A stretch of DNA of 23,885 bases from a virus: positions 1 through 23,885 of IMG/VR virus record IMGVR_UViG_3300046011_003259, one strand, 5' to 3'. Shown here piece after piece: positions 10,451 to 19,713 of the stretch. The notes beneath the pieces were generated by a model, which was not told the DNA's origin, ran no database searches, and saw only the letters and a list, made by a program, of their open reading frames with translations. Position 1 is the stretch's first letter, and each line of letters begins with the position of its first letter. A program made the position numbers and the translations under genes.

Positions 10451-10683
10451 CAATGGCCTTTCCAATGGCTGGCCAGGAAGCCAACCAGCGCAGATAAGCC
10501 GGAGGCAATGCTCATGCCGAGCCAGAGGCCGCCCTTGCCCTTGTTGGCCAAGGCCAGCAGCTCTTCAAGTTGGCGTTCCATTTTGTCGACCTTTCGATCC
10601 ATGTCCTGGACTTTCTGCCAGAGCACGCCGTACTTCACCAGGTCGATCTCGTTGCCTTCCGCCATGACATCGGCCTCCAACAT
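10450..10683 (-). CDS. coiled-coil plus membrane-anchor protein (XhlA/holin-accessory-like)
   Basis: A 77-residue protein. Residues 13-46 form a coiled coil with heptads in V-L-W-Q-K-V-Q-D-M-D-R-K-V-D-K-M-E-R-Q-L-E, and 52-71 (G-L-W-L-G-M-S-I-A-S-G-L-S-A-L-V-G-F-L-A) are a single membrane helix. This layout is like XhlA and other phage lysis-linked membrane proteins and suits a holin accessory, antiholin or small second holin. It sits before the endolysin and holin. ATG at 10683 makes a TAATG overlap with the upstream gene; M7 at 10665 is a possible alternative start. The assignment to lysis is from position and topology. Confidence 0.72.
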   Translation of the reverse strand: MLEADVMAEGNEIDLVKYGVLWQKVQDMDRKVDKMERQLEELLALANKGKGGLWLGMSIASGLSALVGFLASHWKGH

Positions 10684-11036
10684 TACAGGCCTTGGCCAGG
10701 TGTGATGTAGACGGTGTTGGCCGCTGCAGCCAAACCACTGAAATAAGTGTCCTTGTTGAAGCGCAGAATTTCAATCGAGCCTGGCAACAGCACGACAGCA
10801 GGCGATGGATTACCAGCAACTGGAGCGACTGCGTTGGCCGTAGCCTCTGCCGCGCTTGCGCCAGTACCGATGAACACGGTGTTCGTGCCTGCGTTCACAA
10901 AACGAAATTGACCAGCGTTCTGCGGGTCAAACTTCTGGTAAACAGGTGCTTGGATGCCTGCTGGTGCAACAGCAGCAGCTGCCACAACGATGGTTTCGCC
11001 AAGAGGCGAGAAAGCGATTTGCGAGTTGGTGGACAT
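10683..11036 (-). CDS. small conserved virion-module protein
   Basis: A 117-residue Ala/Val-rich beta protein. Recurring features of this phage family are Q-F-R-F-V-N-A-G-T-N-T-V-F-I-G-T-G (43-59), L-L-P-G-S-I-E-I-L-R-F-N-K-D-T-Y-F-S-G-L (83-102) and V-Y-I-T-P-G-Q-G-L (109-117). I have seen such proteins beside tail-fibre genes in phages of beta-proteobacteria, and the beta-rich sequence fits a small structural or decoration protein. No catalytic motif is present. The start has AAGGAG five bases upstream. A fibre chaperone or a fibre-tip component are alternatives; neither is shown. Confidence 0.75.
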   Translation of the reverse strand: MSTNSQIAFSPLGETIVVAAAAVAPAGIQAPVYQKFDPQNAGQFRFVNAGTNTVFIGTGASAAEATANAVAPVAGNPSPAVVLLPGSIEILRFNKDTYFSGLAAAANTVYITPGQGL

Positions 11037-11045
11037 GATGACTCC

Positions 11046-12233
11046 TTACAAAAGTGAAAAGACGGCCTTGTTCTTGCGCCGAGTGTAAATCTGACCTGAG
11101 AATGTGTCGTAGTAATTAATGCTGACGAGGTGACCGTTCAGGTAATTTGTGCCGTCTGAACCCAAACGTGCCTGCGTCACAGTCGGGATCGTTGCCGTAG
11201 TGTCGGTGACCACAGCGCCATTATTCAGACGCGCCTTGCAGTCGTTGGTCTGCCACCATGCAGTCATGCTGTAGTCGGTGTTGGCTGCAATGGTGCCTGC
11301 GTCGATCTGAGCCTGCGGTGTGCCACCATCGACGATATACAACTCAGGGTTCGTGGTGTTGCCGCGCAGCGCAATGATGTTGTCGGCAGTGTTGTCGTCA
11401 AACTGCACCCACGGACGCGTGCCGCTGACGCTGCCAGGTCGCGCACGAACAAGAACTCCGCCGCGAGTGGCCTGCCACCAGTCGCTGAAGTTGGTGCCGG
11501 TGATGGTGGCAACATCGGCGTTGCGGGTGACTGCTGTGGTGGTTGTGGCCTTGTAGCTGGTTGCGCCAACGCCAACTTCCATCTGAGATCCCCAGATGTA
11601 GACGGCCTTTGTTCCAGACACCGGGTCAGGATAAATCCGGGTTAGCTGCGACGCTTCCAGTGCGGTGTAAGTTGCTGAAAGCCTGTACCAGCCGTTTCCA
11701 TAGCTTGTCGCAGTAAAGGTTCCGACGTTGTTGGTGATGCTTGATATTGTTGCACCAGACCAATTCACGTAAGCATCAACAGCACTTGCCCCAACACGCA
11801 CAAGCAACCGCGTCTGTGTGGAATCAACGTTTTTGAGAAAAACGCTCGTTGTGTAAACAACCCCGATAGTGCCTGAGTTAAAAATACCGGCAATAAACGA
11901 CCCTGTTGTTGTCGCCGTTGCTTTGTCAGCGCTCAAAACGCCAGATGGCGATAACGTTGAGTTAGAAGAAACGGTTGTCCCACTGTTTTGCCACCCTGTG
12001 CCCTGGGTTAAGTCTTCGCTCCACAGGTATCTGTTAATCCGTGACTCTTCAACAAGCAGCCCTCTGCATGCCAGCGTGATTGGGTCGTAATCAAACCTCG
12101 GTAGGTCTGCATTGATTGCAACGACAGAGCCTGAAGAATTAACGACAGTGGCCGTGTCGCCAGAACGCGCAAACGTAACCCGAGGGTCAAGACTTGCGGA
12201 AGTAAAGTCGAGTGCAAAGGATGGAGTAATCAT
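11046..12233 (-). CDS. tail/head-fibre protein with concanavalin-like domain
   Basis: A 395-residue beta-rich protein. The N-terminal part (L-D-F-T-S-A-S-L-D-P-R-V-T-F-A-R-S-G, about 9-26, then F-D-Y-D-P and G-L-L-V-E-E-S-R-I-N) is the recurring start of phage 'head spike fibre' and related carbohydrate-binding fibre proteins. Residues 75-235 look like a jelly-roll with W-Y-R-L-S-A-T-Y near 183-190, and residues 255-390 look like a second LamG/concanavalin domain ending in N-G-H-L-V-S-I-N-Y-Y. It overlaps the tailspike stop as ATGA and so is co-translated with it. It may bind host surface sugars. Where it sits on the virion is not visible from sequence. Confidence 0.8.
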   Translation of the reverse strand: MITPSFALDFTSASLDPRVTFARSGDTATVVNSSGSVVAINADLPRFDYDPITLACRGLLVEESRINRYLWSEDLTQGTGWQNSGTTVSSNSTLSPSGVLSADKATATTTGSFIAGIFNSGTIGVVYTTSVFLKNVDSTQTRLLVRVGASAVDAYVNWSGATISSITNNVGTFTATSYGNGWYRLSATYTALEASQLTRIYPDPVSGTKAVYIWGSQMEVGVGATSYKATTTTAVTRNADVATITGTNFSDWWQATRGGVLVRARPGSVSGTRPWVQFDDNTADNIIALRGNTTNPELYIVDGGTPQAQIDAGTIAANTDYSMTAWWQTNDCKARLNNGAVVTDTTATIPTVTQARLGSDGTNYLNGHLVSINYYDTFSGQIYTRRKNKAVFSLL

Positions 12234-14014
12234 GTCAACGTCACTCCTCTCCAAGTGCCACCGTTGTAGACATAAAACTTGTTGTTCGTCGCATCGTAGT
12301 AGAACGGAACACGTCCGGTAAACGTGTTTTCTGGCGTGCCCACTGGAGCGCCATTACCGGAAGGCATGTACATAAATCCCGCCGTCATTCCGGTAAACCC
12401 GTTGACTCCACCAATGTCGGCACCGAGGTATTTATAGGCTGTTAATGTGGATGGATTGCGTAGAACATACTCAACGCCGTATTTTTTCGATGCTGCACCA
12501 GACAACACAAGGCTGTTGGTATTCATGTTTGAAGAATCAATGACAGTGCATGTCACATCGTCACGAATTCTTATGCCAAGGAATGATCCAGACGCTTTTG
12601 AAAATTTAAACCCGTATAGATCAACTGCCAGATAAAGTGCGCCATCGGGATGAGTCGTTGCAATATAGTTGTTGGAGATTTCAGATGTTTGCAGTATTGA
12701 GGTATCTTCACCGTAAATGTTTTCCTCTAAAAAAGAGTCTTTCAGTGTGAAATTGCTTACGGTTGACCCCGAAGTGATTAAAAAAGCATGGGTTGTGTTT
12801 GACTCGTCACGATGGTTATCGAACGTAAGGCTGCGACAATTTCCGGCAATCGTAATGCTGGATGTTTTAGCGTTTGGTTCCGCAACCGTGTAACAACCAG
12901 AGAATAAAAGGTTGTCGGTTGGACTGGCTGTATCGTTTTCAATGTAAAGAGATTGCCCACCAGAATCGGTGGTAGCGAAGTTGTAGAAGCGGCAGTTGTA
13001 GTATGCGTGGCGCGTATTGCCGCCACTGAAACTGTGCGTGTCTAGCCCTGATATGTAGGCAGAAGTGATGCCTACGGTGTTGGTGCCAGACGTATAAAAT
13101 CCGTGTCCTGCCGGGTGGAAGTTAACCGCCCGAATATTGTAAAAGCCATTTAGCTCGGACGAAAGTTCAGCAATTGCAGCCTTGGTGAAATACCCGTAAG
13201 CCTGCACGTTTTCGAAAGTGTGTTCTCCGGCACCTCCGTTAAACAGGTTGCGGCTCATCAAAAAGCCGCACGAGGGTGTAAAAGCATCATTGCTGTTGTA
13301 AACCGCAGCAAAGTTCCTGAACACGCAAAGCCGCGCCCCAGTCATATCAAAAATCGGAAAACCAGAGGTCTTGCCAACAATGACAGAGTGCGGATAGCCC
13401 TCGCCCTCAATCACAATGCCCTGATACAGCGTTGTTGAACTACCCGGTGTGGAAAGTGCATATGTCAAATTTAGGCTAGAAGTGACGAGGTAATTTCCAG
13501 CCGGAATGAACAACATGTTTTTGTTTGCAACACAGTAATCAATAGCATCCTGAATTGACGTTGTGTCATCTGCCACACCATCGCCAACAGCACCAAAGTC
13601 TTTGACAGAGACGGTTTGCGCCAACTTGGCCTCGACGTTGGTCTGCGCTGCATTGGTGAATGGAGGATCGTAGATCACATCTTCGGCATTGATGCCATTG
13701 ACAACCACGCTGTTGTATCGCTCTGTTGCAGTTGCTGCACTGTAAACAGTGCTGCCGTTGCGGTTCATCACACGAATGCTGTAGTCGCTGTTGACGTACA
13801 GGCGACCAGGCGTACCGTTGCGCGAAGGGTAGCCAGCCAGTGTGCGGATTGGTTGAGGTGCAAGAATGGTCAGCGCAGCATCCCAATACACGTTGATCGG
13901 GTTGGTCTGCGGGTCAAGGTTGGCCGTGCCGATCCAGACGTAGCCAGCCTCAAGAGGTTGGCCATCAATGTCCGTGAAGATCGGATAGGTGGGTTGAATG
14001 CTGAGTGCGGACAT
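12230..14014 (-). CDS. tailspike: P22-type head-binding domain plus beta-helix
   Basis: A 594-residue protein if it starts at 14014. Residues 1-110 match the P22 tailspike head-binding domain: P-I-F-T-D-I-D-G-Q-P-L (11-21), G-Y-V-W-I-G (24-29), D-P-Q-T-N-P-I-N-V-Y-W-D (33-44), and A-G-Y-P-S-R-N-G-T-P (59-68). V-K-D-F-G-A-V-G-D-G-V-A-D-D-T-x-x-I-Q-x-A (138-158) opens a pectate-lyase-3 right-handed beta-helix (about 140-480) that recognises or cuts surface polysaccharide. The end (Y-Y-D-A-T-N-N-K-F-Y-V-Y-N-G-G-T-W) is a small beta cap. The 14014 start has AAGGAG upstream; the 14104 start adds 30 hydrophobic residues. The beta-helix DNA has lower G+C than its neighbours. The enzyme activity and substrate cannot be read from the sequence. 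Confidence 0.9.
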   Translation of the reverse strand: MSALSIQPTYPIFTDIDGQPLEAGYVWIGTANLDPQTNPINVYWDAALTILAPQPIRTLAGYPSRNGTPGRLYVNSDYSIRVMNRNGSTVYSAATATERYNSVVVNGINAEDVIYDPPFTNAAQTNVEAKLAQTVSVKDFGAVGDGVADDTTSIQDAIDYCVANKNMLFIPAGNYLVTSSLNLTYALSTPGSSTTLYQGIVIEGEGYPHSVIVGKTSGFPIFDMTGARLCVFRNFAAVYNSNDAFTPSCGFLMSRNLFNGGAGEHTFENVQAYGYFTKAAIAELSSELNGFYNIRAVNFHPAGHGFYTSGTNTVGITSAYISGLDTHSFSGGNTRHAYYNCRFYNFATTDSGGQSLYIENDTASPTDNLLFSGCYTVAEPNAKTSSITIAGNCRSLTFDNHRDESNTTHAFLITSGSTVSNFTLKDSFLEENIYGEDTSILQTSEISNNYIATTHPDGALYLAVDLYGFKFSKASGSFLGIRIRDDVTCTVIDSSNMNTNSLVLSGAASKKYGVEYVLRNPSTLTAYKYLGADIGGVNGFTGMTAGFMYMPSGNGAPVGTPENTFTGRVPFYYDATNNKFYVYNGGTWRGVTLT

Positions 14015-14114
14015 TACTGGTTCTCCTTGGATTGGTTCAGGCTGAAAGAATGATCGAAGCCACGCAAGCAGCCATGCGATCCATTTTCTAAGGGTTGCAA
14101 GCATCGAGTCATCC

Positions 14115-17100
14115 TCACTGCTCCTGTTCAAATTGCTCCTGAGCCTGCAGCGATTGAACAATGAACTTTTCACGCGCACTCATTTCGCGTGGGAGCTTCA
14201 CTGCATCGGCAAACTTTTGGAAAGATTGTGACATCAAGACGGCCTTTACGGTAGCCTTTGACGGGTTGCTGTTGGTGGAAACGGCCTCAACAGCCAAACG
14301 CTGGAACTCAGGCGAAGCGATCAGATCGTCGGCAGCCTTGAGGGCGTTTGTCTTGCCCTTGGTCAGTGCTGCGGTCAAACCGGACGCAATGCCAGCACCA
14401 GGAAGGCCGACAAGGCTTGTAGCTGCCTCGATGGGCACGCCGACGGCTGCACGCTTGGCCAGGCCGTAGATGTTCGACAGCATGTTGTCAGCGCCCTGCA
14501 GCTCCTGCTGGACGGCTTGGATGCGGCCAGTGGTGATGCGCTCGCGGGTGGCTTTGCTCACATTGCTGGACACACGGTACAGGTCGGACAGTTGCTTTCG
14601 TGCAGGCTGAGGAAGGTTGGCCATCAGGGCAGCATAGGCCTGCTTGTTGGCCAGAAGGCCCTCGTACCACTTGGCGTAGGTGTTGAAGTTCAGCGTGCCG
14701 TTTTGGGTGGCCTTGCCGAATGCAGTGTTCAGCGACGATGCTGTGACCGCCTGGCGCATTTCCTTTGGGATAGCGGTCAGAATCTTGGCCAGCTTGTCTG
14801 CGTCGCCTTTGGACAGGGACATGGTGGCCGACTCCAGCTTGCTGACCAGGCTCTGATCGAGCTGGCGGCCAAACAGGGAAGTCATGTCATCTTCAAAGCC
14901 TTTGCGCATCTGCACTAGGCTCTTGGCCAGGCGGTAGCTTTCACCTTGGCCAGCGGTCTGCGCCAGCGCAAACTGGTCATCGTCGATCAGGCGATAAAGC
15001 TGCTTTGCAAGGCCGGTGTCAGCATCAGCGAACGGGCCAGCCTGGCGTGCAGCAGCGCCAACGTCGCGCCGGACGTCGTCGATCAGGGCATACGTCGGGG
15101 CACGGGTGCCGATCACGTTGCCTGCATCGTCTTTGATGGGCTTGGGCGTGAGCTTGCTACGCACCATCTTTTCGAGTGAGGACAGGTTTTCTGGGCCATC
15201 CAGGTCGTCGGCACGCTTTTGCACAAAGTTCAGCACGTTGTCAGCCTGGCCACGGGTCTGCGATGGAATCTGCGTGCGCAGCGCTTTGTATGCGTCGTCG
15301 GCCTGGTTGGACAGGTTGGTCACGGTCTGGTCAAGCTGCGTGCGCACGGACTGGTTGAGCCTGCTCAGGTCGGTGGTGCCGCCGATCTCGGTGATCAAGT
15401 TGTCGGCACGTTGGCCAACTTGCTCCAGACCTTTGATCTCGGATGCGCGAGCCTGGCTGCCGGGGATGGACTTCACCGCCTGGGCCAGCTCACGATAAGC
15501 CTGGTTTGAGGTCAGGTGGTCTGGCTGCAGGTATTCATCGATCCCAAGGCGTCGGGCAGCCTCCAGAACCTTTGGATCAGGTGCGGCTTGGCCAGCCAGA
15601 ACAGAAGTGGCTCGGGTTGCGCCCATGCCGCCCTCGGCAGCGGTGCGTGCGGTCGTGGCCAGCTCTTGCGGTGTCAGGGCAACAGTTTGGGCAACCGTTG
15701 CAGCCGGTGGCGTGACAGGCACGGCAGCCGGTTGGACTTCTGGCGCAGCGGCAGCAGCACGGACAGGTGCAGCCGGTGCCATTGCCGTGCCCATAGGAGC
15801 GCCAGCAGGGGTTGTGGGGCCAGTGGCAGGGGTAACGGGCGCACGAGCAGCACGGACGGCCTGGACGCCGCGCACAGCGGCAGGCAGGACAGGCGCAAGC
15901 ACTGCGGTGGTGGCCACCTCGCCAGCGTCAAACTGACCGCCAGTTGCAGCCTGTGTGGCCTCGATGGCAGCCTGTGTGCCACCAGCAGCCAAGGCCATGC
16001 CGGGCAAAGTTGCTGCGCGGCCAGCCGGGGTGAAGGCAGCCAAAGCGCCAGCAGCACGGGGAATGTCGCTCACCTGGAAGCCGGGCTTGATGGCGTACAT
16101 CTGGCCGTCGATCGACGACTGCAGTACGAAGTTGCCCTTCTCATCCTGGCTGACTTGCACGCCGGGGAAGTTGGACTGGATGACCTGCACAGTTTCCTGC
16201 GGGTTGGTCATCATGGTGCCCAGGGCCGACTTAAAGCTGGACATGCTAAAGGTGTTGAGCTCTGGCATGCCTGCATAGTCCGGCAGCGCCTGTGTCGTGG
16301 GCGTTTCGCGCTCAGTGCCTGCGAAGGCTTCACGGATGCCACCCAAGATGCCCAGGGACTCAGTGCCCTTGAGTTGCATGCCAGCCGGTGCACGCACCAT
16401 GCCGTTTTGCACGTCGGCCTCCAAGTCCATCATTTCCTGACGGGTCATGCGGCCTGTGTTGTAGGCCTCCACCACGGCAGGTGGCAGCTCGGCAACCTGT
16501 GTGCTGGCAGCCGTGCCTTGCGCTGGCGCAGGCTGTTGACCACGCAAAGCAGCGCCACGGGGCAGCATGAGCACGCCAGACTTGACGTCGGCCTCAAAGT
16601 CTGCCGCCTCTTCAGGCGTCATCTGGCCGGAGCTGTAGGCGTTGAAAATGTTTTGAATCGAGCCAGGGGCCATAGCAGGGCCACCAGCAACAGCGCCAGC
16701 ACCACCTCGGGCTGCCATAACGCGCTGAAAGGTACTGTCGCCACCTCCGGGGGGCGTGGCAGGCGTGGCGGCTTGCTCTTGGCCAACACCGGCACTCACG
16801 CGCTCGATGTAGGACTTCGTGCGAGGCCCCCAGTTTTTGGGGTTGGTGCCGCCGTGATATTCGGCAGCGGCCAGCTTGATGTCGCCCTTATTGCGCTGCA
16901 GCGATTCCTTGAGCAGCAGGCCAGCAGCCTCGGCTGCGTTCTGTGGGCTCAGGTAAGCATCGACGCCGTACTTGTCCAGCACAGCCTTGCGCGTGGCAGG
17001 GATGATCTGGAACGGGGTCTTGGCGTTGGCCTCGGACACCTGGTCAGCATTGCTGCGCTCGCCATAAAGCAAGACGGACTTCAGCAGGCCAGAAGGCAGG

Positions 17101-18614: not shown

Positions 18615-19271
18615 TTAAAAGCGGCTGCCAAAACCAAGGCCAAGTTTTCCGCCAGCGCCATATTGAGCGCCAAGCACTTGAGCTGGCAGATTCAGCAGAC
18701 CACCATAGGCTTTGGCTTGGCCAAGCTCTCCACCAGCCAGCGCAGCGCCACGTTCGGCCTGCAGACGTGCGATGGCAGAGCCTGTTTCCATACCTGCGGT
18801 GCCAACACCGGCTGCAGACTGCTGGCCGAGTGACGTCATGCCACCAAGGCGGCTGTATTGCTGATCAATGGCCTCACGAAGCATTGCTGGCCGGAATTGC
18901 GCCAGGGCTGCTTGGATGTTGCCACCACGCAGGCCGCCAGTGGCAGATGCGCGTTGCAGCAATGCTTCTTCGCCTTGGCGCACGGACTCTTGGAAACCGA
19001 CGCCGCCTTGAATGCGCTCGATAGCTGCACGCTCGGCCTCTGGGCCACCCATACCAAGCAATGCTTGTTGCTGCGCAAGTGCTGGAGTGCCTGCTTCCAC
19101 ATAGGGCTTGAGCAATTCACGCATTGCGTCGAATTGACGACGTTGCTCTGCAATACCAGCTTCGCTGGCTTGGGCTTGCATGCCAGCAGCATCACCTGCT
19201 GCGTCGGCTTGCATCATGCCGCCGACGAGTTGTGTGCCGCCGACGATTAGGCCGGTGATTGGATCAGGCAT
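18615..19271 (-). CDS. gp7-like DNA transfer (ejection) protein
   Basis: A 218-residue Ala/Gly-rich protein similar to P22 gp7 (about 229 residues), an ejected virion protein needed for DNA transfer. The start M-P-D-P-I-T-G-L-I-V-G-G (1-12) gives a short hydrophobic N-terminal segment; residues 25-50 are a helical coil; A-S-A-T-G-G-L-R-G-G-N (108-118), A-L-A-Q-F-R-P (121-127) and Q-Y-S-R-L-G-G-M-T-S-L-G-Q-Q-S-A (137-152) are the family's central motif. The ATG at 19271 has GAAGGAG seven bases upstream; a TTG two codons earlier is less likely. The gene overlaps the upstream one by eight bases. It opens the 7-20-16 ejection block. Confidence 0.87.
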   Translation of the reverse strand: MPDPITGLIVGGTQLVGGMMQADAAGDAAGMQAQASEAGIAEQRRQFDAMRELLKPYVEAGTPALAQQQALLGMGGPEAERAAIERIQGGVGFQESVRQGEEALLQRASATGGLRGGNIQAALAQFRPAMLREAIDQQYSRLGGMTSLGQQSAAGVGTAGMETGSAIARLQAERGAALAGGELGQAKAYGGLLNLPAQVLGAQYGAGGKLGLGFGSRF

Positions 19272-19713
19272 GGCCAAACTCCTTCATGTAATCTTCAAAT
19301 GTCTCGCCATACAACCCCATGACAACGTGTGCATTATCGTTGGCAAACTTTGCGCCATGATAGGCCTGCACGGCCATCAGGATGACGTCGTAATAGCCTG
19401 CACGCCACATATAGGAACGCGCATCGGCTTTGCCAGCACGCTCCACACGGTCGGAGGCCTGCCACTTCATGACCATCAAGGCCACGCAAGGTGCAAGCAG
19501 TTCAGCATTTTTGAGGTAAAACGAATTCTGGTTCATCGCCACAAGGGTGTTCCAGATTGCTCCATCGAGCTCGGCACGATCTACAGGATCGCCGTCGGCA
19601 ACGTCATCAAAGACTTGGATGGCGTTCCAGAGCATCAAAAGCCACTCCACGGCTGGCGCAGGCAGCAACAAAACCTGTGCAAGGTTCTGTCTGAGGCTTT
19701 CTATACCAGTCAT
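19264..19713 (-). CDS. conserved virion-module protein, unknown function
   Basis: A 149-residue, mostly helical protein. Its motifs, F-D-D-V-A-D-G-D (35-42), A-I-W-N-T-L (52-57), K-W-Q-A-S-D-R-V-E-R-A-G-K-A-D-A-R-S (83-100) and M-W-R-A-G-Y-Y-D-V-I-L (101-111), are ones I recognise in podoviruses of beta-proteobacteria, directly before the gp7-like gene. It takes the rough place of P22 gp14, which is also small and precedes gp7, but sequence similarity is not apparent. A scaffold or chaperone for ejection proteins is a fair guess. The start has GGAGG seven bases upstream, and a perfect TTGACA lies about 80 bases upstream. Confidence 0.8.
   Translation of the reverse strand: MTGIESLRQNLAQVLLLPAPAVEWLLMLWNAIQVFDDVADGDPVDRAELDGAIWNTLVAMNQNSFYLKNAELLAPCVALMVMKWQASDRVERAGKADARSYMWRAGYYDVILMAVQAYHGAKFANDNAHVVMGLYGETFEDYMKEFGHA

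Follow-up and report, generated by a model that had tools for sequence, protein, structure and literature searches.

S/U of phage Mu and 37/38 of phage T4 are shared fibre and chaperone modules. Within the part of PMC10579305 considered here, fibre and chaperone modules are described as comprising a recognition part and an adjoining gene that are common to distant phages. Modular tailspikes, as presented in the corresponding part of PMC10408124, combine a conserved anchor with an exchangeable receptor-binding domain, and the conserved DNA on either side has been proposed to provide recombination sites. Tail spikes and pectin-lyase-like domains also rank, in the portion of PMC10684548 at hand, with the most pronounced examples of recent domain mosaicism. 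Here we analyse a stretch of viral DNA of 23,885 bases, hereafter called the window, which is the whole IMG/VR record IMGVR_UViG_3300046011_003259. Comparison with related loci leads us to conclude, with a probability that we put at roughly 0.87, that it belongs to a P22-like podovirus whose host-recognition cassette was replaced, the tailspike body after a conserved cap motif having been exchanged together with the N-terminal half of the neighbouring gene dn.

Gene Organization of the Window

A P22-like structural block was recognized in the window using PHROG and Pfam. Its Phage_stabilise, gp7-like, gp16-like (transglycosylase domain) and tailspike genes lie within one block, the arrangement by which we assign the window to the P22-like podoviruses (Table 1). 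The gp7-like gene has a Pfam score of 21.3, below the curated cut-off of 28 bits, and a PHROG match at E 1e-32, and the gp16-like gene is up to 99% identical to its relatives. The only relative of the gp16-like gene that a pattern scan found on a genome contig is L169 (Rhizobacter sp. Root1238; best segment 50% identity), which hints at a burkholderial host, Rhizobacter being, as we assume, burkholderial. The designation of the tailspike as a beta-helix protein is based on Pfam family PF12708, matched by residues 190–280 of a 649-residue open reading frame (E 5e-13); counted from the ATG at 14014, this region corresponds to residues ∼135–225, i.e., to the beginning of the body. Modelling of the tailspike with AlphaFold gave a poor result (mean pLDDT 36).

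Table 1. Features of the tailspike region, with positions in the window.
Feature	Position	Strand	Remarks
gp16-like ejection/transglycosylase gene P0003	14115..17177	-	PHROG 6704/342, Pfam SLT; conserved flank upstream of tailspike
Optional stretch of ∼100 nt encoding MLATLRKWIAWLLAWLRSFFQPEPIQGEPV, in frame with tailspike	14015..14104	-	6/71 loci, window included
Tailspike CDS	ATG 14014 to stop 12230	-	
Tailspike anchor, residues 1–128, begins MSALSIQP	13631..14014	-	Putative head-binding role
Conserved cap motif DFGAVGDGVADDT, start of pectate-lyase-like domain	13562..13600	-	Probable 5′ seam of exchange
Tailspike body, probably exchanged; pectate-lyase-like at start	12233..13550	-	Putative recognition/depolymerase role
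dn N-half, probably part of the exchanged unit with the tailspike body	11562..12233	-	3′ border, GC3, AlphaFold
dn C-half (LamG/lectin-like sandwich) and stop	11046..11561	-	Conserved flank; codon usage normal; fold search
Conserved small gene P0004, closes variable slot	10683..11036	-	Found in 87/167 loci
Low-G+C block (0.49)	11626..14280		Optimal segmentation

The dn gene (11046–12233) overlaps the tailspike stop with its start by 4 nt (ATGA). Its AlphaFold model (pLDDT 85) consists of two beta-sandwich domains joined by a linker at ∼221–235. In Foldseek, dn comes closest to tail fibres of the Pseudomonas phages Pa193 and E217 (TM-score ∼0.4) and to single CBM40 and laminin-G domains; these matches are good for single domains only, the top whole-chain TM-score being 0.42. 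Upstream of the tailspike, the optional stretch in the gap to the gp16-like gene offers a start 84, 90 or 96 nt ahead of the tailspike ATG, and 98 aligned positions of it are absent from L003, L150 and L106; it possibly encodes an extended tailspike isoform, or a peptide of 30–34 residues in another frame.

A Conserved Anchor Followed by Unrelated Bodies

Relatives were collected in two ways. Retrieval with the tailspike itself contributed the best 80 of 145 loci, most of which match the first 140–280 residues only; as these loci were picked largely by the anchor pattern, they are biased toward anchor conservation, and loci retrieved with the gp16-like gene served as control. When 95 distinct tailspikes, the window included, were compared pairwise (BLASTP, 1e-5), the anchors matched in all 4465 pairs and the bodies in 58 of 4465, several of them between near-identical contigs. 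Among the control loci, the anchor follows gp16 in all 39 distinct loci with enough sequence, at 41–87% identity. Note that the anchor itself varies too, since in 7 of these 39 the match covers residues 1–93 only. None of the 39 matches the body of the window beyond approximately residue 227, even where gp16 is 97–99% identical.

No blastn match (E 1e-10) overlapping 11700–13400 was obtained in 167 loci, residues 182–594 of the window matched none of the other 94 bodies, and a query with 12230–13441, made for the source of the body, turned up no relative in viral_contigs, genome_contigs or phages. Three candidate relatives of the body (L003, L050, and L064) were dropped: L003 aligns with residues 129–594 of the window at 28.5% identity across 410 columns (E 9e-10), the cap motif contributing to the score, and because none of the three matches the window when compared from residue 182, they are not counted as body relatives. 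The preliminary description had proposed that the recognition domain was exchanged while the virion anchor was kept; this proposal is supported by the comparison with relatives, and not by composition.

Borders of the Exchanged Unit

The window was compared with seven dn-bearing relatives (L148, L150, L091, L147, L155, L100, and L123), and in all seven similarity is lost at 13535–13714 and regained at 11516–11565. The pattern is well illustrated by L148 (contig 3300016644_000014), which is 76–87% identical to the window down to 13551, 41% over 13550–11562, and 80–95% from 11561 onward. The dissimilar interior extends from 13550 to 11565 for L150, 13562 to 11566 for L091, 13534 to 11565 for L147, 13538 to 11532 for L155, 13616 to 11517 for L100, and 13713 to 11561 for L123. 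Thus, the 3′ border falls within ∼50 nt in 7/7 comparisons and the 5′ border lies at the cap motif in five of the seven, with similarity lost at 13551 (L148 and L150), 13563 (L091), 13535 (L147), and 13539 (L155). It lies ahead of the cap motif in L100 (13617) and L123 (13714), and also in L106 (13743). In L003 and L087, where dn was not found, the 5′ border is at 13538 and 13544, respectively, and homology returns only at P0004 (11036–11037). The borders sit at conserved protein motifs, namely DFGAVGDGxxDDT, the tailspike cap, and SYxxTTTTxxTRNADV in dn (also written SYxPT-TxxTRNADV); in the AlphaFold model the dn-side border falls in the linker between the two beta-sandwich domains. The body therefore appears swapped, as had been suggested, whereas the idea of an exchange confined to the tailspike has to be amended: the unit ends inside dn, at 11516–11565, in 7/7 dn-bearing relatives.

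Recognition domains evolve fast, and a body that diverged rapidly under selection, by vertical descent and without any exchange, would also lose similarity to its relatives. This account leaves the abrupt 3′ borders, recurring within ∼50 nt in all seven comparisons, without a cause, and it is contradicted for L148 and L150, whose interior is more similar than either flank (see below); we consider it extremely unlikely.

Two observations concern neighbouring stretches. Over its final 107 nt (14128–14234 of the window), the gp16-like gene is 92.5% identical to L150, although the part of the gene before them is dissimilar (0.43); this resembles another border of exchange, immediately ahead of the tailspike. 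The contig L152 has two separate matches to the cap motif (2226 and 4401) ahead of dn and may therefore carry two tailspike-like open reading frames.

A Cassette Shared by Diverged Flanks and the Role of dn

The reciprocal pattern was found as well. The window and L148 share flanks and not the interior, whereas L148 and L150 (contig 3300024574_000137) share the interior and have diverged flanks: identity between the latter two is 0.778 in the anchor, 0.969/0.888/0.989 in the interior and 0.770 from the dn seam on, with breakpoints at 459/460 and 2578/2579 from the ATG, the second being the same dn seam as in the comparisons with the window. On the gp16 side, L150 is mostly dissimilar to L148. 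Because the interior is 89–99% and the flanks are 77–78% identical, a unit of ∼2 kb with its borders inside two neighbouring genes is indicated as the object of exchange; in this pair the body and the N-half of dn were, as far as the alignments tell, exchanged as one piece. An interior common to diverged flanks was seen for one cassette only, that of L148 and the near-identical L150, L004, and L005, and no new true carrier emerged when the L148 and L147 bodies were scanned for elsewhere. Other pairs were set aside: the bodies of L041/L131 and L038/L039 are shared, but these loci are similar all along and hence not counted as clear swaps, and L044/L073 resemble each other elsewhere in the locus but differ directly upstream. 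The pairs L042/L053 and L018/L024 have the tailspike region including the anchor in common and dissimilar upstream sequences.

Does the common transfer of the two half-genes reflect a partnership, with the N-half of dn docking on the tailspike body and selection keeping the unit intact? The one clear co-transfer (L148/L150), the correlated GC3 of the body and the dn N-half (see below), the overlap of the tailspike stop with the dn start and the position of the border at the dn domain seam all fit such an arrangement. However, relatives of the L091 and L155 bodies (31–64% identical) occur at nine loci, or six once near-identical ones are joined, and none of the nine has a dn-like match downstream, eight of them holding >2.2 kb there. 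In favour of the exchange itself, a window-type anchor in the same frame is absent at 8/9 of these loci (the eight with enough upstream sequence). Against a partnership, the slot between the tailspike and P0004 lacks a dn-family open reading frame in 51 of 59 loci, and shared flanking sequence alone would produce identical borders. An obligate partnership of body and dn is disfavoured, since relatives of the L091/L155 bodies do without dn, and a lasting functional link between the two is not supported, the nine loci with distantly related bodies lacking dn; we judge the docking explanation improbable.

The C-half of dn is 65–84% identical in 18 of the 29 loci listed (some on the same contig), the other 11 being at 33–60%. 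In relatives, the slot corresponding to 11037–12232 of the window holds an N-terminally conserved cluster of 37 open reading frames, beginning MLKTVSSI... in the three members inspected, the dn family with 8 and another family with 7. A C-terminal tail of the type RRKNK/VRKNK is common to dn and two inspected members of the seven-member family.

Base Composition of the Window and Its Relatives

The low G+C of the tailspike region had been the starting observation of the preliminary description, and its two row counts, ∼43 and ∼38%, are exact (26/60 G+C in 12601–12660 and 23/60 in 12721–12780). The segment 12420–13600 that it delimited indeed has a G+C of 0.460, vs. 0.580 in the remainder of the window. 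Only 4/2271 segments of this length (step 10) are as low, all of them overlapping shifts (starts 12391–12431), and the lowest non-overlapping one has a G+C of 0.521. The 1989-base interval 11562–13550 has a G+C of 0.480, the record minimum at that length being 0.477 (overlapping) and the non-overlapping minimum 0.544. The delimited extent proved too narrow: optimal segmentation returns one larger block (Table 1), with flanks of 0.578 and 0.593, and the low-G+C stretch spans the tailspike body in full and the N-half of dn, ending near 11.6 kb. A single-split segmentation of the window did not find a break; optimal partitioning did.

Codon usage, measured against that of the window itself, shows the same step. 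In body residues 182–594, G+C is 0.471 (expected 0.547, z -10.5) and GC3 0.494 (expected 0.711, z -10.0); residues 1–215 of dn are also GC3-poor (z -7.1). Anchor residues 1–128 (z -1.4) are ordinary, in agreement with the earlier statement that the head-binding end resembles the rest of the genome, and so are dn residues 216–395 (z -0.7). A bit over one third of the G+C deficit of the body against the reference genes (0.591) is due to amino acids (0.591 to 0.547), and the remainder to codon choice (0.547 to 0.471). Note also that the gp7-like ejection gene (18615–19277, minus strand) has a GC3 of 0.50 (z -6.4) with a normal overall G+C; because of this gene, low GC3 does not single out the cassette and composition alone proves little.

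As a rule, the tailspike bodies of this group are low in G+C. The body is poorer in G+C than its own contig in 94/95 cases (mean difference 0.085), and the window ranks 29th of 95; therefore, low G+C by itself is no sign of a recent or unusual foreign source. A group-wide low G+C of tailspike bodies is not reported in the titles and abstract openings of the literature searched, which leaves its absence there unproven. Averaged over 47 tailspikes, GC3 is 0.62–0.67 for the greater part of the anchor and ∼0.50 in the cap motif and beyond, with a separate dip 21–40 codons ahead of the motif. Body GC3 is below anchor GC3 in 74/95 tailspikes, not in all, and body G+C rises with contig G+C (rho 0.51).

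Such regularity invites the explanation that low G+C is intrinsic to tailspike bodies, arising from their amino-acid make-up and from codon selection for folding or translation speed, in which case no exchange is needed to account for composition. The near-universal deficit speaks for it, as does the lowered expectation for the body of the window from amino acids alone. Yet the GC3 deficit persists after amino-acid correction (z -10), and body GC3 spans 0.23 to 0.94, its variation in an equal-length chunk being larger than that of the anchor, marginally (Levene p 0.051). The deficit also extends over the dn N-half, which belongs to another protein, and stops at the dn seam, and the loss of homology is left unexplained. 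We therefore regard an intrinsic cause as unlikely. In dn-bearing loci, GC3 is lower in the N-half than in the C-half in 11/13; in a correlation test chosen after the pattern had been seen, body GC3 follows that of the dn N-half (rho 0.68, p 0.015, n = 12) and not that of the C-half (rho 0.12), so that composition tracks the exchanged interval more than the carrier genome.

A Model for the Exchange

We propose that the N-terminal anchor of the tailspike (residues 1 to ∼150) is retained, while everything past DFGAVGDGxxDDT would be exchanged, together with the N-half of dn up to its domain seam. The anchor would bind the virion and the body read a surface polysaccharide, the variability of host surfaces presumably keeping the exchange turning over. 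The simplest account would be a slot bounded by shared sequence, with recombination in the shared flanking coding sequence performing the exchange: the 5′ side would be resolved in the anchor/cap region, and the 3′ side in the next shared stretch, that is, the dn C-half if both phages have dn and otherwise P0004. The low G+C may then derive from a pool of recognition modules whose G+C is below that of these genomes. Most O-antigen clusters examined in one Pseudomonas study are low in G+C, according to the part of PMC10715155 considered here, and on this ground it may be speculated that gene pools with a G+C below that of the respective genomes supply both phage spikes and the glycans that they meet.

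A stronger version can be formulated for dn-bearing phages. A two-gene exchange unit would be set by two protein motifs, DFGAVGDGxxDDT on the tailspike side and SYxPT-TxxTRNADV on the dn side, the body and the dn N-half forming a composite recognition device (spike and lectin) between conserved half-genes, so that borders of host-range exchange would become predictable from sequence. We advance this version as a doubtful conjecture.

Comparison With Known Systems

The tailspikes of the P22/Sf6 type are related in two respects. Residues 23–182, which overlap the anchor, align weakly with the "Gene 14 protein" of PDB entry 7sg7 (E 2.6e-5), which we take to be from Sf6, and the neighbouring genes are gp7-like, gp16-like and Phage_stabilise. 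They differ in that no solved structure matches the body of the window in sequence beyond approximately residue 211.

Fibre and chaperone modules, as outlined in the part of PMC10579305 considered here, resemble the present case in that a recognition part and a neighbouring gene are shared. Unlike in those modules, the neighbour is the two-domain, lectin-like dn, of which only the N-half moves; it is built of two beta-sandwiches, had no match to chaperone families and is absent beside distant relatives of the body, and we do not class the pair as a fibre with its cognate chaperone.

A further likeness is to the tailspikes of PMC10408124, which, in the portion of that work used here, have a conserved N-terminal anchor, a freely exchanged C-terminal part and conserved bordering stretches. 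There the downstream motif is placed in non-coding DNA after the tailspike gene, whereas in the dn-bearing relatives of the window the downstream border falls within dn, at the seam between its domains. The unit of exchange in PMC10684548, within the part at hand, is a single protein, whereas that of the window crosses a gene border. Exchange of a recognition domain behind a conserved anchor, with conserved border stretches, is thus already published (PMC10408124; PMC10684548, each for the part considered). With the window, a new and well-resolved example is added: a natural case whose two exchange borders are placed to tens of bases, one within each of two adjacent genes; what is less usual is the border inside the neighbouring gene and its recurrence.
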